A DNA stretch of 64,000 nucleotides from NCBI GenBank assembly GCA_002753135.1, contig PDZV01000008.1:1-64000 (forward strand), written 5' to 3'. Both the position numbers and the translations under genes were made by a program. Within the stretch, counting starts at the first letter, position 1. Each line of letters begins with the position of its first letter. The DNA comes from Magnetococcales bacterium WMHbinv6 (lineage in GTDB: Bacteria > Pseudomonadota > Magnetococcia > Magnetococcales > Magnetaquicoccaceae). The notes below the pieces were generated by a model, which was given only the letters and a program-made list of their open reading frames with translations, was not told the DNA's origin and made no database searches. This document shows positions 1-12,727 of the stretch, piece by piece.

Positions 1-119
1 AGGGTTTGATGGAACCGCTCCAGGAGCCCCAGTTGCGTTGGAGTGCGGTACTGGATGCGTACATGCTGAAAACCATCAGCGATGAACTCTTGAAACCGTT
101 TGGCCAAAAAGGATATCAC
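1..119 (-). mobile_element. Transposase/integrase C-terminal fragment (DDE family), cut by window edge
   Basis: Translation of the minus strand from 119 to 1 gives about 39 residues that look like the end of an rve-type DDE integrase core: an AKRFQEFI segment, then HVRIQYRTPTQLGLLERF. The Glu of LGLLERF would be the third catalytic acidic residue. The reading frame is open to the window edge, so the rest of the gene lies further left. No N-terminal part (first two Asp residues) is visible upstream, because hicB occupies that DNA, so this is probably a truncated element end. The GTG at 119-117 overlaps the hicB stop codon. The family assignment rests on motif recognition only. Confidence 0.68.
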
Positions 120-469
120 GCGCCAGTACTGCGACCGATTCCTTTTGCCAAATATGTCGTCACCAGGGCGTTGAGGCTGACACCTTCCTGCTTCGCACGA
201 AACGCAAGCTGACCGTGCAGGCTCCTGGGAATCCTGGTCACGAACCTACCGGAAAAACCTCCAGACATCGGCGCAGGAACAGGATGGCCAAGATCAGTCA
301 AGGCGAAAATGGCTGTCCGCAAGGCATCCATGCCGTTTTCAATGGCTTCCTCAATGGTTCCCCCGTCGGAAAAACACTCGTTGAAGTCAGGAAATGTGAT
401 CAGAAATCCGCTGCCTTCATCGGGTGTCATCGGTCTGATCTCAAACGGGTATTCCTCAGGCTGATACAC
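116..469 (-). CDS. hicB: HicB-type antitoxin
   Basis: A 117-residue protein with the two-part layout of HicB antitoxins. Residues 10-60 form a partly degraded RNase-H-like HicB fold (GFLITFPDFNECFSDG, then TIEEAIENGMDAL). The C terminus carries a ribbon-helix-helix type segment (RIPRSLHGQLAFRAKQEGVSLNALV) expected to bind the operator. It starts three bases after the stop of the HicA toxin gene, the usual toxin-first order of hicAB, and would neutralise HicA and autorepress the pair. Its stop codon overlaps the first codon of the adjoining transposase fragment. The start is the only good Met in frame. Confidence 0.85.
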   Translation of the reverse strand: MYQPEEYPFEIRPMTPDEGSGFLITFPDFNECFSDGGTIEEAIENGMDALRTAIFALTDLGHPVPAPMSGGFSGRFVTRIPRSLHGQLAFRAKQEGVSLNALVTTYLAKGIGRSTGA

Positions 470-472
470 GGG

Positions 473-700
473 TCATCCCCCTTTCACAAACTTGATGAAC
501 TTCTTTATGTAAATCGGCTGAATAGGTCTGTGAGCTGGAACCACCAGCATTTGACCGTCAGCTCGAACAAAGGCGCAGTGACTGCCTCCATTGTGACGCC
601 AGACAATGCCGTATTGCTGCGCCACCGTCTGCAACTGGCTGATCTGCCAGTCAACAGGATTGTTCCCCATAGAGGCCAGAAGTTTGGAAGTCGCATTCAT
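473..700 (-). CDS. hicA: HicA-type mRNA interferase toxin
   Basis: A 75-residue protein. HicA toxins are small double-stranded-RNA-binding-fold ribonucleases that cleave mRNA. The catalytic His lies in the segment HNGGSHCAF (residues 41-49), followed by the typical beta strand MLVVPAHRPIQPIYIKKFIK. The Met at 700 was chosen because the protein then has a normal HicA length; an upstream in-frame extension to 805 has no family resemblance. It precedes hicB by three bases in one transcription unit. It could be mobile cargo, since a transposase fragment and phage-like remnants lie on either side. Confidence 0.85.
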   Translation of the reverse strand: MNATSKLLASMGNNPVDWQISQLQTVAQQYGIVWRHNGGSHCAFVRADGQMLVVPAHRPIQPIYIKKFIKFVKGG

Positions 701-818
701 GACGCTACTGATACCACATTTGACACTACCAATCAAGAAACACTTGACGCCCGGAGCAAAAAGTTGCCACCATTGCTGCCGGAGCTTGAACACCTCCACA
801 ATCACCCAAGGCGGTCAC

Positions 819-1492: not shown

Positions 1493-3040
1493 ATGCTTGA
1501 TGATATTGAGAAAACGCTTTGGGCTGCTGCGGACAAGCTGCGCGCCAACATGGATGCGGCAGAATACAAACATCTGGTGTTGGGACTGATTTTCGTTAAA
1601 TACATCTCCGACACCTTCAATGCCCGTCGCATGGAGTTGACCAAAAGATTTTCCGACCAAAAAGATGAGTACCATTTGCCGGAGGCAACGCCAGAGGATG
1701 TTCAGGCCGAATTGGAGGAGAGGGATTACTACACCGCAGCCAACGTCTTCTGGGTTCCTGAAGCGGCGCGTTGGGAGGCACTTCGCTCATCGGCCAAGCA
1801 GCCCCAGATTGGCAAGCTGATTGATGAGGCTCTGACCCTCATCGAAGCCGAGAATCCCAGGCTCAAGGGGATTTTGGACAAACGCTACGCCCGTGCGCAA
1901 CTGCCGGATGGCAAGCTGGGCGAGCTGATTGACCTGATTTCCACCATCGGATTCAACACCGATGCCGGACAGGTTCGTGATGTGTTGGGTCAGGTCTACG
2001 AATATTTTCTTGGTCAGTTTGCCAGTGCGGAGGGCAAAAAGGGTGGTCAGTTCTACACCCCGGCCTCCATCGTCAAGAGCCTGGTGGCGGTGCTGGCTCC
2101 CCATCATGGCAAGGTCTACGACCCTTGCTGTGGCTCTGGCGGGATGTTCGTGCAGAGCGAAAAGTTTATCGAGGCGCATGGTGGCAAACGTGGTGATACC
2201 TCGATTTATGGTCAGGAGTCCAATCCGACCACATGGCGTTTGGCGGCCATGAATCTGGCCATTCGCGGCATCGATTTCAATCTGGGCCGGGAACCGGCAG
2301 ACACCTTCACCAAAAATCAACATCCCGACCTGAGAGCCGATTTCATCTTGGCCAATCCTCCTTTCAATGTCAGCGATTGGTGGCACGGTTCTTTGACCGG
2401 AGACCCGCGCTGGCTCTACGGAGAGCCACCGGCTGGCAATGCCAACTACGCCTGGTTGCAGCACATGCTCTATCACTTGAAGCCCACCGGACGGGCAGGC
2501 ATCGTGTTGGCCAACGGTTCCATGAGTTCTTCCCAGAACAGCGAAGGCGAGATTCGCCGCCGGATGGTGGAAGCGGACGTGGTGGAGGTGATGGTGGCTT
2601 TGCCGGGTCAACTGTTCTTCAATACCCAAATTCCGGCCTGTTTGTGGTTTTTGGCCAAACGGAAGAGTCATCGCCAGGGGGAGGTGCTGTTCATCGATGC
2701 CCGCAAGCTGGGAACCATGATTAGTCGCTCCCAGGCGGAATTGACCAATCAGGTCATTACTCGAATTGGGGATACGGTGGCGGCATGGCGTGCCGGGTTG
2801 GAGACCTACCAGAATATCCCCGGCTTTTGCCACAGTGTGAAATTGGCAGAGATTGCCGAACATGGCCACGTTCTCACCCCCGGTCGCTATGTGGGAGCCG
2901 AAGAGGTGGCAGATGATGATGAGGTGTTCAACGAGAAAATGAAAAAATTGACTGCAAAACTCGGAGAACAGATGGCCAAGGGTGCCGAACTGGACCAGTT
3001 GATTCGGCAGAAGTTGGGTTCGTTGGGGTATGAGTTCTGA
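1493..3040 (+). CDS. hsdM: Type I restriction-modification DNA methyltransferase subunit HsdM
   Basis: A 515-residue N6-adenine methyltransferase subunit of a type I restriction enzyme, working as M2S or R2M2S complexes. The helical HsdM N domain covers about residues 1-150. The SAM-binding motif I is DPCCGSGG (210-217) and the catalytic motif IV is NPPF (288-291). The length is normal. It opens the operon; its TGA overlaps the ATG of the first HEPT gene by one base, so all genes up to hsdR are probably co-transcribed. The long antisense frame lying over it is a codon-bias shadow. Confidence 0.95.
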
Positions 3041-3474
3041 TGGCGGCATTGATTGAAATGGACCTCTCCCGGCTGGAAAGCGCAGTTGAGCGGCTTGATG
3101 AGGGACTGCGCCGCTATCAACTGGATGTCTCCGATATCCAGATACGGGATGGATTGATTCAACGCTTTGAATTCACCTATGAAATCAGTCACAAGACACT
3201 GAAAAGGTTCCTGGTGATGGCATCCCCATCACCAGATATCTTCGATGATATGCCTTTCTCGGATTTGATTCGCACGGGAAATGAATATGGGTTATTGTCT
3301 GGGAATTGGGAGGACTGGAAGAAGTACCGGGAGAGAAGAGGAAAGAGCAACTATACCTATGATGAGCAGATTGCCATGGACGTGGTGCAGTACATTCCCG
3401 CCTTTTTGGAAGAGGTTCGTTACCTGTTGAATAAACTCAAATCAAGAGTGGGAGACCAGCCATGTCAAGATTGA
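3040..3474 (+). CDS. HEPT-domain protein 1 (HI0074-type nucleotidyltransferase substrate-binding family), altered active site
   Basis: A 144-residue all-helical protein of the HI0074/HepT-like family, the usual partner of minimal nucleotidyltransferases (MNT). Typical segments are RDGLIQRFEFTYEISHKTLKRFL (36-58) and YRERRGKSNYTYDEQ (96-110). HepT toxins carry R-x4-H-x-Y, where Arg and His are the RNase residues and Tyr is AMPylated by MntA. Here the motif reads R100-x4-Y105-x-Y107, so the catalytic His is replaced by Tyr. It is therefore probably not an active RNase and may be a partner or immunity paralogue of the next gene. It overlaps that gene by 13 bases. An alternative start is Met7 at 3058. 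Confidence 0.82.
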   Translation: MAALIEMDLSRLESAVERLDEGLRRYQLDVSDIQIRDGLIQRFEFTYEISHKTLKRFLVMASPSPDIFDDMPFSDLIRTGNEYGLLSGNWEDWKKYRERRGKSNYTYDEQIAMDVVQYIPAFLEEVRYLLNKLKSRVGDQPCQD

Positions 3475-3860
3475 GTATCGAAGCGTTGGAAAAAGCCGTC
3501 GCAACCATCGAGAAAGCAGTGATGGAGTATGAACAACATCCTGATTTGTTAAGCTGCCGTGATGGTGCCATTCAGAGATTTGAAATCACAATGGATTTGT
3601 CATGGAAGTTGCTGCAACGGGTTCTGATGGAACGTTTCAGCGTTCAAATCGGTTTGTTGCGTTCCAAAAAGGATTTATTCCGCGAAGCGGCCACCTATGA
3701 ACTCATCGCCGATACGGAAAGATGGCTGCAACACTACGAATCCAGGAACGACACGTCGCATGTGTACGATGAAGATGTTGCGGCGCGCGTTTTTGAACAT
3801 ATCAAAGAGTTTTTGCCAGATGTACGCGACCTCGTTATCAGGTTGAAAAATGTTGCTTGA
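3462..3860 (+). CDS. HEPT-domain protein 2 (HepT-like toxin candidate), intact R-x4-H-x-Y
   Basis: A 132-residue paralogue of the preceding gene. It keeps the family features: RDGAIQRFEITMDLSWKLLQ (33-52), an EAATYELIAD helix, and SRNDTSHVYDE, in which R95-x4-H100-x-Y102 is the complete HepT motif. In characterised HepT/MntA pairs HepT is an RNase toxin silenced when MntA adds AMP to that Tyr. Its start overlaps HEPT1 by 13 bases and its end overlaps the MNT::hsdS fusion by 11 bases, so translation is likely coupled. Position next to an MNT domain is the standard toxin-antitoxin arrangement; what is unusual is that the MNT belongs to HsdS. Confidence 0.85.
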   Translation: MSRLSIEALEKAVATIEKAVMEYEQHPDLLSCRDGAIQRFEITMDLSWKLLQRVLMERFSVQIGLLRSKKDLFREAATYELIADTERWLQHYESRNDTSHVYDEDVAARVFEHIKEFLPDVRDLVIRLKNVA

Positions 3861-5457
3861 TATCCGCCCGGACCATCTGAAGATTGTTCAGGACATCCTC
3901 AAAAAACATGTTCCCGACCATGAGGTGTGGGCGTTTGGTTCACGGGTCAAATGGACTGCACGGGATTATTCGGACCTGGATTTGTGCGTGATTTCCGACC
4001 AGCCTCTCGGCTGGGGGGTGAAGGGCGATTTGCTGGATGACTTCGCTGAGTCCGATTTGCCCTGGAAGGTGGATGTGGTGGATTGGGCGACGACCAGTGA
4101 GTCGTTCAGGAGGATAATTGAGATGGAGAAGGTGGTAGTGCAGAAAGATAAAGCAAGGCATGACCAATTTCCTAGTTCTTATATTCTTTTGCGAAAGTTG
4201 TTAATCGAGACGAAAGATGGTGAATGGGGAAAAGATGCGCCATTTGAAAATAGTATTCAGATGGCCGTTATTCGCGGAACAGATTTCGATGCTGTGAAGA
4301 TTGGGTCGCTTACAGGAGTTCCGATTCGCTATATTAACAAAAAAGCTGCAAAACGCAAAGCGCTACAACCATTTGATATTCTTATTGAGACAGCGGGAGG
4401 TAGTAAAGGAAAACCAACTGGCAAAACGGTTTTAATAAAACCGTCCCTTTTTGATAAAACTGAATTAGAAATTACTTGCGCATCGTTCGCGCGTTTTATG
4501 CGAATTGATACAACTCTCGCTAAACCAGAATTTATATATATTTATCTTAAATGGTTATACCTTAATGGCGAGATGGAAAATCACCAGATTCAACATACTG
4601 GCGTTGCTCGCTTTCAATTCACAAAATTTGCAGATTCAGTAGAAATTCCTCTTCCGGAAATTTCAATCCAGAAAAATATCTCAGACTTTTTTGGTGCTCT
4701 TGATGACCGCATCACCCTCCTGCGCGAGACCAACGCCACCCTGGAAGCCATTGCCCAGGCGTTGTTCAAATCCTGGTTCATCGATTTCGACCCCGTGCAT
4801 GCCAAGCAGCAGGGATTTGCCCCGGAAGGCATGGATGAAGCCACTGCCGCTCTGTTCCCGGACAGCTTTGAAGAGTCGGAGTTGGGGTTGATTCCGAAGG
4901 GGTGGAGGGTTAAATCATTTAACCAACTTTGTAATATTTCAAGTGGTAAGCGTCCTCTTGAACGAAATGATACTGTAACCAGTATCGCAAAAATTCCTTT
5001 GTATGGTGGTGCTGGAATTATGGGTTTTACCAATTCATCATTATTTGATGTTCCAAAGATTGTAACCGGACGTGTAGGAACTCTTGGAAAAATTTATATC
5101 GCCCATCCACCATTCTGGGCATCAGATAACGCACTGGTGATTTCACCAATAGCAAGCAAAAACATTTATTTCTGTTATGAATGGATTAAAAAGATAGATG
5201 TAAGCGTTCTTAATAAAGGGTCCACTCAACCATTGCTAACTCAGAAAGATTTAGGAAACCAAAAAAATATTGTTCCATTTGATAGTCTTCTTGACTTGTT
5301 TTTTTCTGTTATTAGTCCTGTTTATCGGGCTATTTTTCAAAATACTGAACACGCCCAAACCCTCACCACCCTCCGCGACACCCTCCTCCCCCGCCTCATC
5401 TCCGGCCAACTCCGTCTGCCAGAGGTGGAAGCGTTGCCTGGGGAGGCCAGCAAATGA
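3850..5457 (+). CDS. hsdS: MNT nucleotidyltransferase fused to type I specificity subunit HsdS
   Basis: A 535-residue two-part protein in one uninterrupted frame. Residues 1-100 are a minimal nucleotidyltransferase: G30-S31-x10-D42-x-D44 is the exact GSx10DxD motif of MntA antitoxins, and VDVVDW (74-79) supplies the third Asp. From about residue 105 it is HsdS: first target-recognition domain to about 275, central conserved region LDDRITLLRETNATLEAIAQ (285-304), second domain about 350-500, then the distal repeat TLTTLRDTLLPRLISGQL. HsdS recognises the bipartite DNA site for HsdM and HsdR. Both recognition domains are visibly AT-richer than the conserved parts, as expected from domain exchange. 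Whether the parts are cleaved or expressed separately cannot be seen; no strong internal start sits near 4160. Confidence 0.9.
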   Translation: MLLDIRPDHLKIVQDILKKHVPDHEVWAFGSRVKWTARDYSDLDLCVISDQPLGWGVKGDLLDDFAESDLPWKVDVVDWATTSESFRRIIEMEKVVVQKDKARHDQFPSSYILLRKLLIETKDGEWGKDAPFENSIQMAVIRGTDFDAVKIGSLTGVPIRYINKKAAKRKALQPFDILIETAGGSKGKPTGKTVLIKPSLFDKTELEITCASFARFMRIDTTLAKPEFIYIYLKWLYLNGEMENHQIQHTGVARFQFTKFADSVEIPLPEISIQKNISDFFGALDDRITLLRETNATLEAIAQALFKSWFIDFDPVHAKQQGFAPEGMDEATAALFPDSFEESELGLIPKGWRVKSFNQLCNISSGKRPLERNDTVTSIAKIPLYGGAGIMGFTNSSLFDVPKIVTGRVGTLGKIYIAHPPFWASDNALVISPIASKNIYFCYEWIKKIDVSVLNKGSTQPLLTQKDLGNQKNIVPFDSLLDLFFSVISPVYRAIFQNTEHAQTLTTLRDTLLPRLISGQLRLPEVEALPGEASK

Positions 5458-5489
5458 GTTGGAGGGGGGATGTGGATAGGGTTGTCCCG

Positions 5490-5525
5490 TTTTCTATACA
5501 TGTCGTGGGGGACATGTATAGAAAA
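5490..5525. promoter_or_regulatory. 15-bp perfect palindrome, operator candidate for fic
   Basis: TTTTCTATACATGTC (5490-5504) and GACATGTATAGAAAA (5511-5525) are perfect inverted copies around a 6-base loop, in the 106-bp gap between hsdS and fic. A further half-site like TGCATGTCGTC lies at 5538-5548. There is no T tract on the plus strand after it, so an operator for the winged-helix C-terminal domain of Fic or another regulator is more likely than a terminator. Confidence 0.6.
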
Positions 5526-5563
5526 TGCGATTTTTTATGCATGTCGTCACTGACCGGTGCGCC

Positions 5564-6637
5564 ATGAAGCCGCTTTGCTCGCTGGATCGTTTAAGTGTCG
5601 AGCGTTTCGATACCCCAGCCATCTTGAAGAAATTGGCCAGCAGCAGTCGCCAGTTGGCGGAACTCAAGGGCATGGCGGCCTCCATGCCCAACCAGGGCAT
5701 CCTGATCAGTTCGCTGGGACTGCAAGAAGCCAAGAACAGTTCCGAAATTGAGAACATTGTCACCACCCACGATGAACTGTTCCAAAACGATGTGTTGGCG
5801 GATGAGGCCCCCAATCCAGCGGCCAAAGAGGTATTGCGCTACCGGCAGGCGTTGCGGTTGGGGTTTGACTTGGTGCGCCAGACCGGTTTGATCACCAATA
5901 ACCACATCATCGCCATTCAGGCGGAACTGGAAGAAAATCATGCCGGTTTTCGCAAATTGCCTGGCACCGCGCTAAAAAACAACCACAACGAAACGATCTA
6001 CACCCCGCCCCAGAATTCGGCAGAAATTGTCGCACTGATGAGCGAACTGGAGCGTTTTATCAATGACAGCGGACATTTTGCGGCAGACCCGTTGATCAAG
6101 ATGGCCTTGATTCATCACCAGTTTGAAAGCATTCATCCTTTTTACGACGGCAATGGTCGTACCGGGCGTATCATCAATGTGCTGTATTTGGTCAAGGAAA
6201 GGCTGCTCGACGTGCCGGTACTCTATTTGAGCAGTCATATCGTGCGTAGCAAGGCCCACTATTACCGGTTGTTGCAGAGCGTGCGCGATCACGATGTCTG
6301 GGAAGAGTGGGTGCTTTATATGTTGGATGCGGTGGAGCAAACTGCTGGCCAGACCATCGCCACCATTCGTGACATCAAAACCGCCCTGTTCGATTACAAA
6401 CACCGCATCCGTGCCTCGCATAAATTTTACAGTCAGGATTTAATCAATCACCTGTTCATGCATCCTTACACAAAAATTGATTTTTTGCAGCGCGACCTAA
6501 AGGTGTCCAGACTGACAGCAACCAAATATCTGGATATTTTGACAGAGGCGGGTTTTGTGGGCAAGAAGAAGGCAGGACGTTATAATTATTATATTAATCA
6601 TACTCTTGTCAACATTCTGCTGAAGCCATCATCATGA
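5564..6637 (+). CDS. Fic-family AMPylase with C-terminal winged helix
   Basis: A 357-residue Fic protein. Fic enzymes transfer AMP (or related groups) from a nucleotide to protein hydroxyls. The catalytic motif HPFYDGNGRTGR (about residues 191-202) matches HxFx(D/E)GNGRxxR perfectly. An N-terminal inhibitory helix S-x3-E-N (SSEIEN, about 59-64) makes it a self-inhibited class II Fic. The last 60 residues (LINHLFMHPYTKI...RLTATKYLDIL) resemble a winged helix-turn-helix. The Met at 5564 was chosen because family similarity starts there; an in-frame start at 5525 would lie in the palindrome. It overlaps hsdR by four bases. Fic genes are known passengers of type I loci. Confidence 0.9.
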   Translation: MKPLCSLDRLSVERFDTPAILKKLASSSRQLAELKGMAASMPNQGILISSLGLQEAKNSSEIENIVTTHDELFQNDVLADEAPNPAAKEVLRYRQALRLGFDLVRQTGLITNNHIIAIQAELEENHAGFRKLPGTALKNNHNETIYTPPQNSAEIVALMSELERFINDSGHFAADPLIKMALIHHQFESIHPFYDGNGRTGRIINVLYLVKERLLDVPVLYLSSHIVRSKAHYYRLLQSVRDHDVWEEWVLYMLDAVEQTAGQTIATIRDIKTALFDYKHRIRASHKFYSQDLINHLFMHPYTKIDFLQRDLKVSRLTATKYLDILTEAGFVGKKKAGRYNYYINHTLVNILLKPSS

Positions 6638-9600
6638 CTGAAGAGCAGTTGGAAAAGGAGGTTCTCGGTTGGCTGCGGGAAGTCGGCTATTCCCCCCTGC
6701 ACGGCCCGGATTTGGCCCCGGATGGTCCGGCATCGGAACGCAAGGACTATCGGCAAATCCTCCTGACTGACCGTCTGCGCTCTGCCATCTCACGCCTGAA
6801 TCCCACCACCCCTGCCGCAGCCCAAGAAGATGCCCTCAAACAGGTGATGAATCTGGCCTCTCCGGTGCTGCTGGCCGCCAACCGGTATTTTCATCATCAA
6901 CTGGTAGCCGGGGTGAAGGTGTTGTATCAGAAGGATGGAGAGACACGCGGTGATTTTGTGCAACTCATCGACTGGAAGCAACCGGCCAACAACGAATGGC
7001 TGGCCATCAACCAGTACTCGGTCAAGGGGCCACGCCATACCCGCCGACCAGACATCATCCTGTTTGTGAACGGGTTACCCCTGGTGGTGCTGGAGCTGAA
7101 AAATCCGGCTGATGTGGAGGCCGACATCTGGAAGGCCTTTGAGCAACTCCAGACCTACAAAGAACAAATTCCTGATTTGTTTCAATACAATGAAATTATG
7201 GTCATCGCCGATGGCAGCGAAGCCCGCATGGGTTCTTTGACGGCCAATCAGGAACGGTTCCTGCGCTGGCGTACCATCGATGGTGCCACCTTGGACCCCT
7301 TGGGTCAGTTCAACGAGTTGGAGACCCTTATCCGGGGCGTGCTGTCCCCTGTCTATTTATTGGATTATATACGCTATTTCGTCCTGTTTGAAGAGGATGG
7401 CACCCTGGTGAAAAAGATTGCCGGGTATCATCAGTTTCATGCGGTGCGGGCTGCCATTCAACAGGTGGTGGAGGCATCCCGACCGGGCGGTCAACAGCAG
7501 GCCAAAGGCAAAGGGGGTGTGGTCTGGCACACCCAGGGGAGCGGCAAGAGCATCACCATGACCTGTTTTGCCGCACGGGTGATGCAGGAAGCGGCCATGC
7601 ACAATCCCACCATCGTGGTCATCACCGACCGCAACGATTTGGATGGGCAACTGTTCGGCGTCTTCTCGCTGGCGCAGGATTTGTTGCGTGAACAACCCAT
7701 GCAAGCCACAACCCGTCAAGAGCTGCGTTTGAAACTCAAAAACAGGGCATCCGGGGGTATCCTCTTCACCACCATTCAAAAGTTCATGCCGGGAGAGGAT
7801 GAAGACACCTTCCCGCTGCTCTCCGACCGGCACAACATTGTGGTCATCGCCGATGAGGCCCACCGCACCCAATACGGTTTTGCAGCCTCTTTGAAGGGCA
7901 AGCCGGGCCAGGAGAGGTTTCAGGCAGGTTATGCCCAGCATCTGCGGGATGCCCTGCCCAATGCCACCTTTGTGGCCTTCACCGGAACGCCGGTCTCCTC
8001 GGAAGACAAGGATACCCGTGCTGTCTTTGGCGACTATATCCACGTCTACGACATGCAACAGGCCAAAGAGGATGGAGCCACGGTTGCCATCTACTTTGAG
8101 TCTCGACTGGCCAAACTGGCCATCAACCAGGAAGAGATGCCACTGATTGACCTGGAGGTGGATGAACTGGCCGAGGATGAAGAGGAGAGCCAACAGGACA
8201 AACTGAAAACCCGCTGGGCCGCCCTGGAGAAGGTGGCGGGAGCGGAACCACGACTCATCCGCATCGCAACAGACCTGGTGTCCCACTTCGAGGAGCGCAA
8301 CAAGGCACAAACCGGCAAAGCCATGGTGGTGGCCATGAGCCGTGAAATCTGCGTGCATCTCTACAACGAAATCATCAAATTGCGCCCGGAATGGCAGGAT
8401 GCGGACCCGGAAAAGGGTGTCATCAAAATTGTCATGACCGGTTCTGCCAGCGACAAAGCCCTGCTGCGTCCTCATCTCTACGCTTGTCAGGTCAAAAAAC
8501 GGCTGGAAAAACGGTTCAAAGAGCCGAAAGACCCGCTCCGCTTGGTGATTGTGCGCGATATGTGGTTGACCGGCTTCGATGTACCCTGTCTGCATACCCT
8601 CTACGTCGATAAACCGATGAAGAGCCACAACCTGATGCAGGCGATAGCGCGTGTCAATCGGGTCTTCAAGGATAAGCAGGGCGGTTTGGTGGTGGATTAC
8701 ATCGGCATTGCCAACGAGTTGCAATCGGCTCTCAAAGAGTACACCAACAGCAGAGGTCGTGGTCGTCCTACTGTCGATGCAACAGAAGCCTATGCTTTGC
8801 TGGCCGAAAAGCTGGAGATCATCCGGGGCATGTTGCACGGCTACGACTACAGCGATTTTCTGACCACCGGTCACAAGCGTCTGGCCGGAGCCGCCAATCA
8901 TGTGCTGGAGCAGAAAGAGGGCAAGAAGCGGTTCTGTGATGAAACGTTGGCCATGAGCAAGGCGTTCACCCTCTGCTGCACCCTGGATGAAGCCAAAGCC
9001 GTGCGGGAAGAGGTGGCTTTTTTCCAGGCGGTGCGGATCATTCTGACCAAACGGGACATCAGCCAGAAAAAATTGACCGACGAAGAGAAGGAACTGGCCA
9101 TCCGGCAAATCATCAACGCTGCCGTGGTTTCGGACCAGGTGGTGGATATCTTCGATGCGGTGGGACTGGACAAACCCAACATCGGCATTCTGGATGATGA
9201 ATTTCTGGCTGAGGTCCGCAATCTGCCCGAACGCAATCTGGCGGTCGAGTTGCTGGAGAGATTGCTGCATGGGGAAATCAAGTCCCGCTTCTCCCGCAAT
9301 CTCGTCCAGGGGAAAAAGTTCTCTGAACTGCTTGCCAACGTCATCAAACGCTATCAAAACCGGGGAATCGAGACCGCCCAGGTGATTGAAGAGCTGATTG
9401 AAATGGCCAAAAAATTCCGGGAAGCCTCCAAACGGGAAGGGGAACTGGGACTGAGCGAGGATGAAATCCGTTTCTACGATGCCCTGGCAGACAACGAATC
9501 CGCCGTTCGGGAGTTGGGCGATGAAACCCTGAAGAAGATTGCCCAAGAGTTGACGGAAAATCTCAGAAAAAATCTCACCGTGGACTGGTCATCCCGCGAG

Positions 9601-9735
9601 AGTGTCCGGGCACAGTTACGATTGATGGTCAGGCGCATCCTGCGCAAATACAAATATCCCCCCGACCAGCAGGATGCCGCCGTTGACCTGGTGCTGTTGC
9701 AGGCTCAGGCCATCGGGGAAGAGTGGGTGGTTTGA
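6634..9735 (+). CDS. hsdR: Type I restriction endonuclease subunit HsdR
   Basis: A 1033-residue motor and nuclease subunit. The N-terminal PD-(D/E)xK nuclease has D140, E154 and K156 (PDIILF...LELKNP). The SF2 translocase follows with Walker A HTQGSGKS (299-306), DEAH (407-410) and FTGTP (motif III). The C-terminal helical part contacts HsdM. The length is typical and all motifs are intact, so the restriction enzyme appears functional. ATGA overlap with fic couples the two genes. A long frame on the opposite strand is a shadow. Confidence 0.95.
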   Translation: MTEEQLEKEVLGWLREVGYSPLHGPDLAPDGPASERKDYRQILLTDRLRSAISRLNPTTPAAAQEDALKQVMNLASPVLLAANRYFHHQLVAGVKVLYQKDGETRGDFVQLIDWKQPANNEWLAINQYSVKGPRHTRRPDIILFVNGLPLVVLELKNPADVEADIWKAFEQLQTYKEQIPDLFQYNEIMVIADGSEARMGSLTANQERFLRWRTIDGATLDPLGQFNELETLIRGVLSPVYLLDYIRYFVLFEEDGTLVKKIAGYHQFHAVRAAIQQVVEASRPGGQQQAKGKGGVVWHTQGSGKSITMTCFAARVMQEAAMHNPTIVVITDRNDLDGQLFGVFSLAQDLLREQPMQATTRQELRLKLKNRASGGILFTTIQKFMPGEDEDTFPLLSDRHNIVVIADEAHRTQYGFAASLKGKPGQERFQAGYAQHLRDALPNATFVAFTGTPVSSEDKDTRAVFGDYIHVYDMQQAKEDGATVAIYFESRLAKLAINQEEMPLIDLEVDELAEDEEESQQDKLKTRWAALEKVAGAEPRLIRIATDLVSHFEERNKAQTGKAMVVAMSREICVHLYNEIIKLRPEWQDADPEKGVIKIVMTGSASDKALLRPHLYACQVKKRLEKRFKEPKDPLRLVIVRDMWLTGFDVPCLHTLYVDKPMKSHNLMQAIARVNRVFKDKQGGLVVDYIGIANELQSALKEYTNSRGRGRPTVDATEAYALLAEKLEIIRGMLHGYDYSDFLTTGHKRLAGAANHVLEQKEGKKRFCDETLAMSKAFTLCCTLDEAKAVREEVAFFQAVRIILTKRDISQKKLTDEEKELAIRQIINAAVVSDQVVDIFDAVGLDKPNIGILDDEFLAEVRNLPERNLAVELLERLLHGEIKSRFSRNLVQGKKFSELLANVIKRYQNRGIETAQVIEELIEMAKKFREASKREGELGLSEDEIRFYDALADNESAVRELGDETLKKIAQELTENLRKNLTVDWSSRESVRAQLRLMVRRILRKYKYPPDQQDAAVDLVLLQAQAIGEEWVV

Positions 9736-10011: not shown

Positions 10012-10335
10012 TCAAGCAATCGCCTCAAGCCCTTTCTTGGCGACCAGAGAGAGCAGCTTCAGAGCCGGGCCGGCAGGTTTTTTGATACCCCGTTCCCACT
10101 GACTGACCGAATCCTTGGACACGTTCAGATAGTTGGCAAAAATCGATTGGCTCACCTGGGACTTCTCACGCAGTTGCCGGATCTCTTCCGGGGCAAACTG
10201 TTTAACAGGAGTCAGGCACGCCTCATCGAATTCCCGCATGGTCTGTTTATCGACCACCCCGGCTTCGTACATTTCAGACATGGTTTGATGAATAGCCTCC
10301 ATTGCCTCACTTTTATAAATCAGATGTTTTTTCAT
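10012..10335 (-). CDS. HigA/NadS-like XRE antitoxin
   Basis: A 107-residue protein with a Cro/C1 helix-turn-helix at about residues 50-100 (EIRQLREKSQVSQSIFANYLNVSKDSVSQWERG), followed by KKPAGPALKLLSLV. The 45-residue N-terminal extension before the DNA-binding domain is typical of HigA-like antitoxins of the NadS group. It lies 13 bases downstream of a RelE-fold toxin gene, so the toxin is first in the unit, as in higBA. It should bind the toxin and repress their common promoter. Confidence 0.87.
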   Translation of the reverse strand: MKKHLIYKSEAMEAIHQTMSEMYEAGVVDKQTMREFDEACLTPVKQFAPEEIRQLREKSQVSQSIFANYLNVSKDSVSQWERGIKKPAGPALKLLSLVAKKGLEAIA

Positions 10336-10348
10336 GGCATATCACCTC

Positions 10349-10702
10349 TTAATACGTGCCTTTTTCAATGAATCCTGCCAAAACCGTTTCGGACAAAGAA
10401 AACACAAAGTCAGACATCGATTTGAATGCTTTTTCCTCAGAAATCTCGATATTTGCCGTTTCACTCTTTGGAAACCCATACACGAAGAAAGCCCGGTTAC
10501 CCCGCCGGTACAGTATCACGGTCCTGTAACCACCCGACTTTCCCGCACCTTCCCTGGCGATGCGCTTCTTGATGACGCCACCGCCGTAGTCAGCATCCAC
10601 CAACCCGGCTTCCGCCTCCCGTACCGCTGCACACAGGAGAGCATCGCTGATACGCTCTTTTATTGCAAATTTTGCAAACCATCGGTTTTTGAAAACCCTC
10701 AC
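10349..10702 (-). CDS. RelE/HigB-family toxin
   Basis: A 117-residue protein of the RelE-fold group that pairs with NadS-like antitoxins. Recognisable segments are KNRWFAKFAIKERISD at the start, GGVIKKRIAREGAGKSGGYRTVILYRR in the middle (the basic strand-loop region), and FVYGFPKSETANI. Such toxins are ribosome-dependent or free RNases. It is followed by its antitoxin gene 13 bases downstream. The 118-bp gap to the selO stop holds its promoter region on the minus strand. Confidence 0.87.
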   Translation of the reverse strand: MRVFKNRWFAKFAIKERISDALLCAAVREAEAGLVDADYGGGVIKKRIAREGAGKSGGYRTVILYRRGNRAFFVYGFPKSETANIEISEEKAFKSMSDFVFSLSETVLAGFIEKGTY

Positions 10703-10820: not shown

Positions 10821-12320
10821 TCAGGTGCCACAAAACGTTTGATACTCCCCCCAGGTTGCCGGTGGTGGCTGGCTGAAGGTATCCTGACCCTCCTGCTGTT
10901 GAAAAGGCGTTTGCAGCACCTGGTATAACTGCCGATAGGGCTGCCACTCACCCTGCTCCACGGCGGCGCTTAGTGCGTTTTCGAGCAGATAATTACGCGG
11001 AATATATAGCGGATTGACCGCATTCATCGCGTTTGCCCGCAGGGCATCATCCGGCCCATCTCGCCGCACCACTGCCAACCATTCCGCCAACCAACGTCGA
11101 GCCGCCAACGGGTCACGGAAACCGGCACACCAGGCGGCCTCTCCCTCGGCACCTGTCAGCAGCACCTCTGCCAAGCGACGCAAGGTCAAGGTATAATCTG
11201 CCCTGCCCCGATACATGCACTCCAGCAACCGCTCGATCAACTGGGCATCCGCCGGATCTTTACCGCTCAAACCCAGCTTTGCCCGCATTCCCTGCAACCA
11301 ATTCTCCTGCAACAGCTCGGGAAAAAGTGCCAACATCTCTTGCATGATCCGCTTGCCTTTTCCCGGTTGCTCTGTTTCCAGCAACGGCAACAACGCCTCT
11401 GCCATCCGCCACATGTTCCAGGCAGCGATGGCCGGTTGATTGCCGTAGGCATAGCGACCCCAATGGTCAATGGAACTGAATACCGTGGACGGATCGTAAT
11501 GGTCCATGAAGGCACAGGGCCCATAGTCAATGGTTTCGCCGGAAAGAGCGGTATTGTCGGTATTCATGACCCCATGGATAAACCCCACCTGCAACCAACG
11601 GGCAATCAACTGCGCCTGCTGGCGGATAACCGCCTGCAACAGGCTGCAAGCAGGTTTGTCTCTCTCTTGCCACTCGGGATAATGACGCCGCAGGGTGTAA
11701 TCGAGCAACTGGCGCACCCCCGGCCAATCGTTGCGAGCAGCAAAATATTGCAACGTGCCAACCCGAATATGGCTGGCTGCCACCCGTGTCAACACCGCCC
11801 CCGGCAACACCTGTTCACGAAAAACCGGATCTCCGCTGGTCACCACCGCCAGAGAACGACTGGTGGGAACGCCCAAAGCAAACATCGCCTCTGACACCAG
11901 ATATTCGCGCAGGACCGGCCCCAACCAGGCACGACCATCACCCCGACGCGAATAGGGGGTACGGCCACTCCCTTTCAACTGCACATCCTGTCTGCGCCCC
12001 TGGCGATCGATCACCTCACCCAACAGAATGGCCCGTCCATCGCCCAACTGCGGCACAAATTGGCCAAATTGATCACCGGCATAGGCCAGGGCAATCGGGG
12101 AGGCATCCGGCGGCAACAGATTGCCGGAAAACCATTGCGCCCCAAAGCGCCACAACAGATCGCTCTCCCAGCCTAAAGCGTGGGCCAAAGGTTCATTCAA
12201 CAACACCATCTCCGGCTTGCTGACCGGCTCTGGAGGCAACCGGCTGTAAAAATGTGCCGGCAAACTTTGGTAGCTGTGGCTCAAACCCAAAGCGGGCCCC
12301 AGCGTGGCAGAGGGTAACAT
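10821..12320 (-). CDS. selO: Protein adenylyltransferase SelO (YdiU/UPF0061)
   Basis: A 499-residue pseudokinase-fold enzyme that AMPylates proteins on Ser, Thr or Tyr and is linked to redox homeostasis in bacteria. Family segments are AYAGDQFGQFVPQLGDGRA, VQLKGSGRTPYSRRGDGRA (nucleotide-binding Lys), FIHGVMNTDN with the metal-binding residues, and DYGPCAFMD. The Met at 12320 starts right at family similarity; a longer frame upstream runs into msrB DNA. It begins five bases after the msrB stop, so msrB and selO form one unit, sensible for two oxidative-stress functions. Confidence 0.93.
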   Translation of the reverse strand: MLPSATLGPALGLSHSYQSLPAHFYSRLPPEPVSKPEMVLLNEPLAHALGWESDLLWRFGAQWFSGNLLPPDASPIALAYAGDQFGQFVPQLGDGRAILLGEVIDRQGRRQDVQLKGSGRTPYSRRGDGRAWLGPVLREYLVSEAMFALGVPTSRSLAVVTSGDPVFREQVLPGAVLTRVAASHIRVGTLQYFAARNDWPGVRQLLDYTLRRHYPEWQERDKPACSLLQAVIRQQAQLIARWLQVGFIHGVMNTDNTALSGETIDYGPCAFMDHYDPSTVFSSIDHWGRYAYGNQPAIAAWNMWRMAEALLPLLETEQPGKGKRIMQEMLALFPELLQENWLQGMRAKLGLSGKDPADAQLIERLLECMYRGRADYTLTLRRLAEVLLTGAEGEAAWCAGFRDPLAARRWLAEWLAVVRRDGPDDALRANAMNAVNPLYIPRNYLLENALSAAVEQGEWQPYRQLYQVLQTPFQQQEGQDTFSQPPPATWGEYQTFCGT

Positions 12321-12325
12321 GCCGC

Positions 12326-12727
12326 TTACTCTGCCGCCGGGACAAAACGCAAGGCGACACCATTGTTGCAATAGCGTAATCCGGTCGGCTGCGGGCCGTC
12401 GGGAAAAACATGACCCTGATGGCCGCCACAGCGGGCGCAATGGTATTCCGTGCGCGGCACCAACAGATGATAATCGGTTTTGCTGGCCACGCTCTCCGGC
12501 AGGGCGGCAAAAAAACTGGGCCAACCGCTGCCACTTTCATATTTCGTCGCCGCATCAAACAGCGCCTGCCCACACCCGGCACAATGATAGATGCCCGCTC
12601 TTTTCTCCCGATTGAACGGACTGGAACCTGGTCGTTCCGTCCCCTCCTGGCGCAAAACACGGTACTGTTCCGGCGTCAAACAGTGTTGCCATTCGGCATC
12701 ATTGACAGGTAGTTGCTTCTCTTCCAT
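12326..12727 (-). CDS. msrB: Peptide methionine-R-sulfoxide reductase MsrB
   Basis: A 133-residue cytoplasmic enzyme reducing methionine-R-sulfoxide in proteins. Two CxxC zinc motifs are present (HCAGCG near residue 48 and HCARCG near residue 96), then GHVFPDGP and the active-site segment GLRYCNNGVALRF with the catalytic Cys. Met1 is preceded by AGGAG at good spacing. The gene is first in a two-gene unit with selO. Confidence 0.94.
   Translation of the reverse strand: MEEKQLPVNDAEWQHCLTPEQYRVLRQEGTERPGSSPFNREKRAGIYHCAGCGQALFDAATKYESGSGWPSFFAALPESVASKTDYHLLVPRTEYHCARCGGHQGHVFPDGPQPTGLRYCNNGVALRFVPAAE

Follow-up and report, generated by a model that had tools for sequence, protein, structure and literature searches.

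Can the DNA-recognition subunit of a type I restriction-modification (R-M) system also serve as an antitoxin? The question is raised by a 64,000-nucleotide stretch of the Magnetococcales bacterium WMHbinv6 (contig PDZV01000008.1, positions 1 to 64,000; hereafter the window), in which six genes lie head to tail at 1493-9735: hsdM, two small genes for HEPN proteins (HEPN1 and HEPN2), a gene in which a nucleotidyltransferase (MNT) domain is fused to the specificity subunit HsdS, fic and hsdR. The make-up of a type I system is complete, with HsdM, an HsdS with two target recognition domains (TRDs) and HsdR in a single operon. From sequence and structure comparisons we consider it fairly likely that a type VII toxin-antitoxin (TA) cassette (HepT/MntA Class I, HI0074/HI0073 subtype) is lodged between the genes for HsdM and HsdS, with its antitoxin domain forming the N-terminus of HsdS, so that loss of HsdS would leave the toxin unmodified. 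A TA function of HEPN2 and the MNT domain as such is, judging from their families and motifs, quite probable.

The original prediction for this locus described one uninterrupted frame that joins a nucleotidyltransferase to a complete HsdS, and both Pfam and AlphaFold2 (AF2) bore this out. Pfam placed Polbeta/NTP_transf_2 (Polbeta at residues 14-101, E 2e-10) and Methylase_S (E 5e-18) in the single frame 3850-5457, and the AF2 model of the protein had a mean predicted local distance difference test score (pLDDT) of 87.7. Residues 1-101 of the model fit HI0073 (1no5) with a template modelling score of 0.96 on the target, at 0.8 Å and 56% identity, and the remainder fits HsdS structures, 1yf2 among them. 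The MNT part is an HI0073-type nucleotidyltransferase carrying an exact GSx10DxD motif, with G30-S31, D42 and D44 at the positions predicted, and as the N-terminus of HsdS the putative antitoxin domain is physically tied to the DNA-recognition subunit, as had been proposed. Residues 103-108, between the MNT fold and HsdS, were modelled with low confidence, and the MNT part has no long C-terminal helix ahead of this linker. A Legionella study describes its own MNT as lacking the alpha-4 helix by which other MntA proteins hold HEPN; in the fusion, HsdS appears to start at the place of the missing helix.

Two small genes had been said to precede the fusion with overlapping starts and stops, and coordinates and frames agreed. 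One base is common to the hsdM stop and the HEPN1 start, HEPN1 and HEPN2 overlap by 13 bases and HEPN2 and the fusion by 11. Because these frames share bases, translation of HEPN1, HEPN2 and the fusion is probably coupled. Both small genes had been called HEPT; the name of the domain is HEPN, HepT being that of the toxin. Pfam and NCBIfam placed HEPN1 and HEPN2 in the HI0074 family (PF08780, TIGR01987), not in the DUF86 (PF01934) family of Shewanella HepT. The predicted Rx4HxY motif is present in HEPN2, where it reads RNDTSHVY and ends in Tyr102. HEPN1, about which the prediction was silent, has a degenerate version: the Arg and the Tyr at the acceptor position are retained, and the catalytic His is replaced by Tyr105. 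Judged by these motifs, only one of the two HEPN proteins looks catalytic. The AF2 model of HEPN2 (pLDDT 95.9) matched best, among Protein Data Bank structures, the Legionella HEPN-MNT complex and AMPylated HEPN (8xeh, 8xdj), HI0074 (1jog) and Thermus relatives, lying within 1.9-2.0 Å of the Legionella HEPN and HI0074.

We then asked how widely the fusion recurs. Genome contigs were scanned with the fused protein as query and the best 80 of 343 loci were kept, a selection in which the fusion frequency is biased. MNT::HsdS was found in 21 of these loci (numbered L), MNT and HsdS as neighbouring genes in one (L010) and a free MNT in three; searches with the window's proteins found no MNT in the other 55, some of which lie at contig ends. 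HEPN is encoded directly upstream in 20 of the 21 fused loci, the exception being L034. A search for MNT N-terminal to HsdS with HEPN genes alongside, suggested in the original prediction, thus showed that the arrangement recurs, mostly with HEPN upstream. By their record titles, the fused loci come from Pseudomonadota, Nitrospirota, Planctomycetota, Chloroflexota, Actinomycetota, Cyanobacteriota, Acidobacteriota and Thermodesulfobacteriota, several of these phyla being represented by one metagenome-assembled genome each. Strain or isolate records are included (Nitrosomonas mobilis, Methylolobus aquaticus, Ferrovum myxofaciens).

Loci were added from 100 relatives, from 398 genomes of the phylum and from plasmids; the profile hidden Markov models were built from the window's own proteins, so that distant MNT or HEPN domains may be missed. 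The enlarged set held 81 distinct MNT domains of at least 80 residues, of which 32 were fused to HsdS and one, according to Pfam, to HsdM (L119). Seven others belonged to unfused hsdM-HEPN-MNT-hsdS operons, six lay by pieces of hsd operons (one of these remnants, L124, has a full hsdM on a contig that ends just past MNT) and 35 stood alone, seven of them on loci of 3.3 kb or less. GSx10DxD was kept in all 33 fused MNT domains. An Rx4HxY HEPN was encoded within 320 bases upstream of 30 of the 32 HsdS-fused MNTs and of the single HsdM-fused one (31/33); the two MNT::HsdS genes without HEPN are those of L034 and L121, and in L121 a short HEPN-like stub could be made out by eye at the end of the sequence ahead of MNT. 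Seen from the HEPN side, 84 of 89 distinct Rx4HxY HEPNs (218 loci) were directly followed by an MNT match of 80 residues or more, and the remaining five include L191, with a match of 79 residues, and L181, where MNT comes before HEPN. No phage-borne relatives of MNT were found in 50,697 phage records at E 1e-5.

The HsdM fusion in L119 (3575-5692; G032:C222) carries MNT on the N-terminus of HsdM in a frame of 706 residues, with its own HEPN upstream, and is followed by a second HEPN and then by an MNT::HsdS in which Pfam finds no recognition domain. Three close MNT relatives (83-88%) were free-standing, and among the frames listed for the 398 genomes there was no further MNT::HsdM fusion beyond that of G032.

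On a tree of the MNT domains (81 rows, 96 columns; 16 of 78 inner branches open), from which domains below 80 residues were left out (the truncated MNTs of L103 and L109/L180, and L176), the fused state required 14 changes, at least nine of them forced by well-supported branches. The window's MNT groups among fused, remnant and free Magnetococcales-like MNTs. Co-variation was measured by ranks of pairwise distances with 2000 permutations in the 21 loci having all five proteins, drawn from 79 HEPN-MNT pairs; these loci are not phylogenetically independent. HEPN and MNT distances were correlated (r 0.58, 0/2000 permutations, n=21), also with five Acetobacter rows reduced to one (0.57, 0/2000, n=17) and in fused loci only (0.59, 1/2000, n=16). 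The positive control, HsdM-HsdR, gave 0.88 (0/2000; n=21) and 0.86 (n=16), and HEPN-HsdM, also neighbours, gave 0.18 (231/2000; n=21) and -0.12 (n=16). MNT-HsdS was weakly positive at n=21 (0.23, 16/2000; MNT against conserved HsdS columns 0.22, 42/2000) and vanished (-0.01, 1075/2000) once the five Acetobacter rows became one (n=17). In the fused loci (n=16), MNT gave -0.07 against conserved HsdS columns and -0.07 to 0.05 against HsdS, HsdM and HsdR. Because MNT distances follow HEPN and not the HsdS half, the fused polypeptide appears to be an evolutionary chimera whose front half belongs with HEPN and whose back half belongs with the R-M genes, and HEPN-MNT cassettes have probably been exchanged between operons. 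One locus, L203 (2-1294, minus strand; G015:C191), encodes a full MNT, then a C-terminal piece of a different MNT and then HsdS; it looks like a possible footprint of cassette exchange.

Unfused and decaying forms were seen in 11 Acetobacter loci, examined out of 23 records in the plasmid MNT search. In four of them (L155, L159, L186, L188) hsdM, HEPN, MNT, hsdS and hsdR are present as separate intact genes, arranged in the same order, with MNT and hsdS overlapping by 1-8 bases or sitting 10 apart; L153 has the same set with hsdM in two pieces. The hsdS gene is broken or missing in six (L158, L160, L183, L184, L185 and L187, the last cut near the 3' end), all of which retain an Rx4HxY HEPN and MNT, and in five of the six the HEPN and MNT proteins are identical. 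The complete Zymomonas plasmid pZMOB01 (Zymomonas mobilis ATCC 10988) has the fused form with all operon parts present, and on two other Zymomonas plasmids HEPN and MNT form a free-standing pair. The Acetobacter plasmid operons (e.g. NZ_CP021525.1) and pZMOB01 share the order hsdM-HEPN-MNT-hsdS-hsdR, unfused in the former and fused in the latter; both are annotated as separate generic genes, with one HEPN each. Free HEPN-MNT pairs also lie beside scraps of hsdM or hsdR in the Magnetococcales-like L111, L113, L125 and L126. Since HEPN-MNT is kept both in the hsdS-damaged Acetobacter loci and beside these scraps, the TA part tends to outlive the R-M part. A reported hsdSp deletion in Z. mobilis ZM4 (PMC8432527) was set aside as evidence on HsdS loss: the plasmid MNT search matched three Zymomonas records, none of them from ZM4, whose HsdS likely has no MNT, the presence of the ZM4 plasmid pZM32 in the searched collection being unchecked.

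The closest known system is Class I HepT/MntA (type VII TA), for which Yao et al. 2020 (PMC7641770) give the rule of PF01934 or PF08780 beside PF01909 with RX4HXY and GSX10DXD, and report, for Shewanella and an archaeon, that the Tyr of the motif receives AMP. HEPN2 and MNT follow this rule, with PF08780 next to PF01909 (above cut-off) and both motifs; HEPN1 departs from it in RX4HXY. The HI0074/HI0073 subtype (PF08780/PF01909) has the same families, motifs and adjoining overlapping genes as the window, but its MNT is a free protein of about 100 residues, whereas here it is the N-terminal domain of HsdS and two HEPN genes, one apparently dead, lie within a type I R-M operon. In the Legionella study, AMP was found on the corresponding HEPN Tyr, and low ATP or AMP removal was suggested to reactivate HEPN. 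A further precedent is PrrC, a HEPN-fold anticodon nuclease encoded among the hsdMSR genes of EcoprrI and described as a second line of defence (PMC3710099, PMC3506569). The type Ic EcoprrI operon resembles the window in having a HEPN RNase gene inside it; however, PrrC is an ABC-ATPase::HEPN protein held by protein contact, and here a small PF08780 HEPN faces an enzymatic antitoxin on HsdS. The ABC-ATPase fused to HEPN that marks PrrC and RloC is absent, HEPN1 and HEPN2 having 144 and 132 residues and PF08780 only.

We propose that HEPN2 would be a growth-stopping RNase, and that the MNT half of MNT::HsdS would move AMP from ATP onto its Tyr102 and so silence it. HEPN2 would be translated just ahead of the fusion, through the overlapping start and stop codons, and then be AMPylated by it. 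If HEPN2 were still made after HsdS had been lost, through loss or decay of hsdS or degradation of the protein, unmodified toxin would accumulate, and the same would happen if the operon were lost while toxin mRNA or protein persisted. With HsdS carrying the antitoxin, the type I system would therefore become costly to lose, that is, addictive; an abortive back-up would be possible if a phage removed HsdS. Because AMPylation is covalent, loss of HsdS would free only newly made or AMP-stripped HEPN. The earlier proposal that dissociation of HsdS would free the toxin has to be narrowed in this sense: covalent AMP speaks against it, and it could hold only with continued HEPN synthesis, HsdS degradation or AMP removal.

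Several observations weigh against this proposal. In L109/L180 and in L103, an Rx4HxY HEPN stands beside an MNT that ends after the catalytic core, and in the window's own genome no MNT could be recognised over the 1.1 kb that separate another one (G000:C19:43317-43712) from the contig end; a HEPN without a full neighbouring MNT can thus persist, and may be silent, inactive or helped from elsewhere. The same genome holds a free MNT without adjoining HEPN (G000:C15:35924-36166). Around the window's lineage the fusion is a minority state: a fused frame of at least 400 residues was found in 10 of the 40 MNT-matching genomes among the 100 relatives, nine of these frames containing HsdS and one HsdM. 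In the 16 fused loci MNT does not co-vary with HsdS, despite the shared polypeptide. The six decayed Acetobacter loci amount to about two events or lineages, and MNT is a separate gene there. Finally, HEPN2 and the window's MNT are an unusual pairing, since near relatives of this MNT pair with HEPN1-type proteins: HEPN1 is 73-76% identical to the usual partner of this MNT in related genomes (L111, L112, L113, L115), and the HEPNs nearest to HEPN2 (56-63%) come with MNTs that share only 55-68% identity with that of the window. HEPN2 is also 59% identical to the HEPN of L008, whose fused MNT is 76% identical to the window's.

How do other explanations compare? An assembly artefact or frameshift that joined two neighbouring genes could be suspected in a genome of 80 contigs, and assembly error had been named as something that would overturn the fusion; it is ruled out by recurrence of the fusion in 21 loci among the best 80 of 343 from another collection, which include independent assemblies and strain or isolate records, and on the complete plasmid pZMOB01, and we regard it as practically inconceivable. 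The cassette might instead be selfish, a passenger stabilising the R-M operon or its plasmid, fused through a lost MNT/HsdS junction and without any sensing role. The Acetobacter junctions, overlapping by 1-8 bases or 10 apart, mean that small changes suffice for fusion, and this account also agrees with the repeated changes between fused and unfused states, with the cassette outliving the R-M genes and with co-variation of MNT with HEPN only; it leaves unexplained why the cassette sits so regularly between hsdM and hsdS and why MNT is fused to HsdM in L119. We regard it as a serious possibility that falls somewhat short of likely.

A guarding role would go further: anti-restriction proteins would bind, dislodge or destroy the M/S complex, HEPN2 would go unmodified and the infection would be aborted, as by PrrC behind EcoprrI. 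The physical tie between antitoxin and R-M subunit, the location of the cassette inside hsd operons across phyla, and the PrrC precedent together with the published immunity-suicide coupling hypothesis (PMC3506569, PMC3710099) are in line with it. However, MNT does not co-vary with HsdS, HsdM or HsdR in fused loci, inhibition of HsdS need not release a covalently AMPylated toxin, and split and fused forms both persist, so that guarding appears possible but unlikely; the lack of MNT-HsdS co-variation in the fused loci would speak for a tether, not a co-adapted sensor. MNT could also be a domesticated regulator that AMPylates HsdM, HsdR or Fic to tune restriction, with HEPN as its substrate-binding partner. 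HI0074 was first described, and is annotated, as a substrate-binding subunit, and two more AMP-transferase families are encoded close by (Fic at 5525-6637, SelO at 10821-12524); but MNT distances track HEPN and not the Hsd subunits, and the Rx4HxY HEPN ahead of 30 of the 32 HsdS-fused MNTs would be unexpected for a mere binding subunit, which makes regulation very improbable. Our own proposal of an antitoxin carried by HsdS could be widened: in many lineages HsdS would keep an embedded HEPN RNase in check as its antitoxin, new toxin would be AMPylated or not according to the state of the restriction complex, MNT would have been attached repeatedly to HsdS and at least once to HsdM, and the dead HEPN1 would act as a decoy or dimer partner setting the threshold of HEPN2. 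As a whole, this wider version is speculative and rather doubtful.

Type I R-M systems are not known to be addictive by themselves, and the fusion would explain how one could become so. The idea of an abortive back-up is itself not new, having been published in 2012-2013. HEPN genes in R-M operons are already described, with the proposal of their products being held by R-M subunits as PrrC is by EcoprrI (PMC3506569, PMC3710099) and released by viral counter-measures (Makarova 2012; Anantharaman 2013). Makarova et al. 2012 pointed out that immunity loci have toxins and no typical antitoxins, and that immune components may serve as inhibitors. If correct, the wider version of our proposal would provide a physical case of this 2012 suggestion. 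The loci described here form a recurrent operon family with a recognisable antitoxin, and this antitoxin is itself a piece of an R-M subunit. The coupling hypothesis thereby becomes testable on one gene, a complete fused operon lying on a plasmid of the culturable, non-pathogenic Z. mobilis ATCC 10988. According to Anantharaman 2013 (PMC3710099), HEPN domains associated with R-M systems are fused to nucleases, helicases and ATPases, not to methylases; in a table of this survey, however, members of the HEPN-M class (PF08780/DUF86) are occasionally joined to MNT or to methylase domains, and the word HsdS is absent from its text. The fusion had been thought undescribed, and we found no description of it in the open-access literature (figures, bioRxiv and most subscription papers lie outside this scope). 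Its architecture is, however, already contained, unnamed, in the PADLOC profile PDLC03138 'Specificity_I', where the isolated MNT domain matches at positions 2-99 (E 5e-26) and a stretch of HsdS (L012) at positions 229-321; the label is that of a specificity subunit, with MNT and HEPN unmentioned.

The unusual pairing in the window may reflect its history, in which HEPN2 would have been inserted later between HEPN1 and MNT and HEPN1 would have lost its His afterwards. HEPN1 was compared with relatives by the ratio of nonsynonymous to synonymous substitution rates (dN/dS). Four of the six comparisons gave a defined ratio, of 0.06-0.13, at a dS of 1.15-2.25 that is near saturation, and HEPN pairs among its relatives gave 0.12-0.20. 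We considered HEPN1 as a pseudogene and rejected this: dN/dS gives no sign of relaxation, though most of the divergence may predate the loss of the His. Because dN/dS is low where defined, HEPN1 probably still has some function as a protein. It would be a paralogue that has lost catalysis yet is retained, perhaps as a partner or an AMP-accepting decoy. A parallel to this dead/live pair was seen in L018 (Acidobacteria), where 1337-2324 reads as a motif-less HEPN, then a motif-intact HEPN, then MNT::HsdS.

Features of the operon are listed in Table 1. Both HsdS recognition domains (window 4150-5350) have a guanine-plus-cytosine (GC) content of about 0.35-0.40, the HEPN genes 0.45-0.47, the MNT part 0.53 and most of hsdM and hsdR about 0.50-0.59; by their low GC content, the TRDs look as if imported.

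Table 1. Genes, domains and motifs of the hsd operon in the window
Feature	Position	Strand	Basis
hsdM, type I N6-adenine methyltransferase subunit, 515 residues	1493..3040	+	PF02384 3e-107, PF12161 2e-23
HEPN1, PF08780/HI0074 family, 144 residues, catalytic His replaced	3040..3474	+	PF08780 2e-28
HEPN1 degenerate motif R100-x4-Y105-x-Y107	3337..3360	+	alignment
HEPN2, PF08780/HI0074 family, 132 residues, predicted RNase toxin	3462..3860	+	PF08780 1e-34
HEPN2 motif R95-x4-H100-x-Y102, RNase residues and predicted AMP acceptor	3744..3767	+	alignment
MNT::HsdS fusion, 535 residues	3850..5457	+	single open frame; Polbeta and Methylase_S; AF2 model
MNT domain, residues 1-101, predicted AMP-transferring antitoxin, HI0073-like	3850..4152	+	1no5 match; phmmer 4e-32
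GSx10DxD, G30-S31 ... D42-x-D44	3937..3981	+	sequence
Low-confidence linker, residues 103-108	4156..4173	+	pLDDT < 50
HsdS first TRD, about residues 111-267, GC 0.37-0.40	4180..4650	+	AF2, composition
HsdS second TRD, about residues 340-475	4867..5274	+	PF01420 residues 349-476; AF2
Fic protein adenylyltransferase (SoFic-like), operon accessory	5525..6637	+	profile matches
hsdR, type I restriction/translocase subunit, 1033 residues	6634..9735	+	TIGR00348 1e-181; PADLOC REase_I

The Fic protein carries HPFYDGNGRTGR and the putative inhibitory motif SSEIEN. TA genes were found on both flanks of the R-M operon. Just upstream lies a gene for a HicB-family antitoxin (PF15919/PF05534; window 116-805, minus strand), adjoined by a small open reading frame that is HicA-like by eye and gave no match in the Pfam search; just downstream of hsdR lie a RelE-family toxin (PF06296, 2e-46) and a partner resembling a helix-turn-helix antitoxin (window 10012-10702, minus strand). 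Further on, a SelO protein adenylyltransferase (PF02696; 10821-12524) stands beside a SelR/MsrB gene (together window 10821-12727, minus strand). MNT, Fic and SelO bring three families of AMP-transferring enzymes together in about 9 kb, possibly by coincidence.

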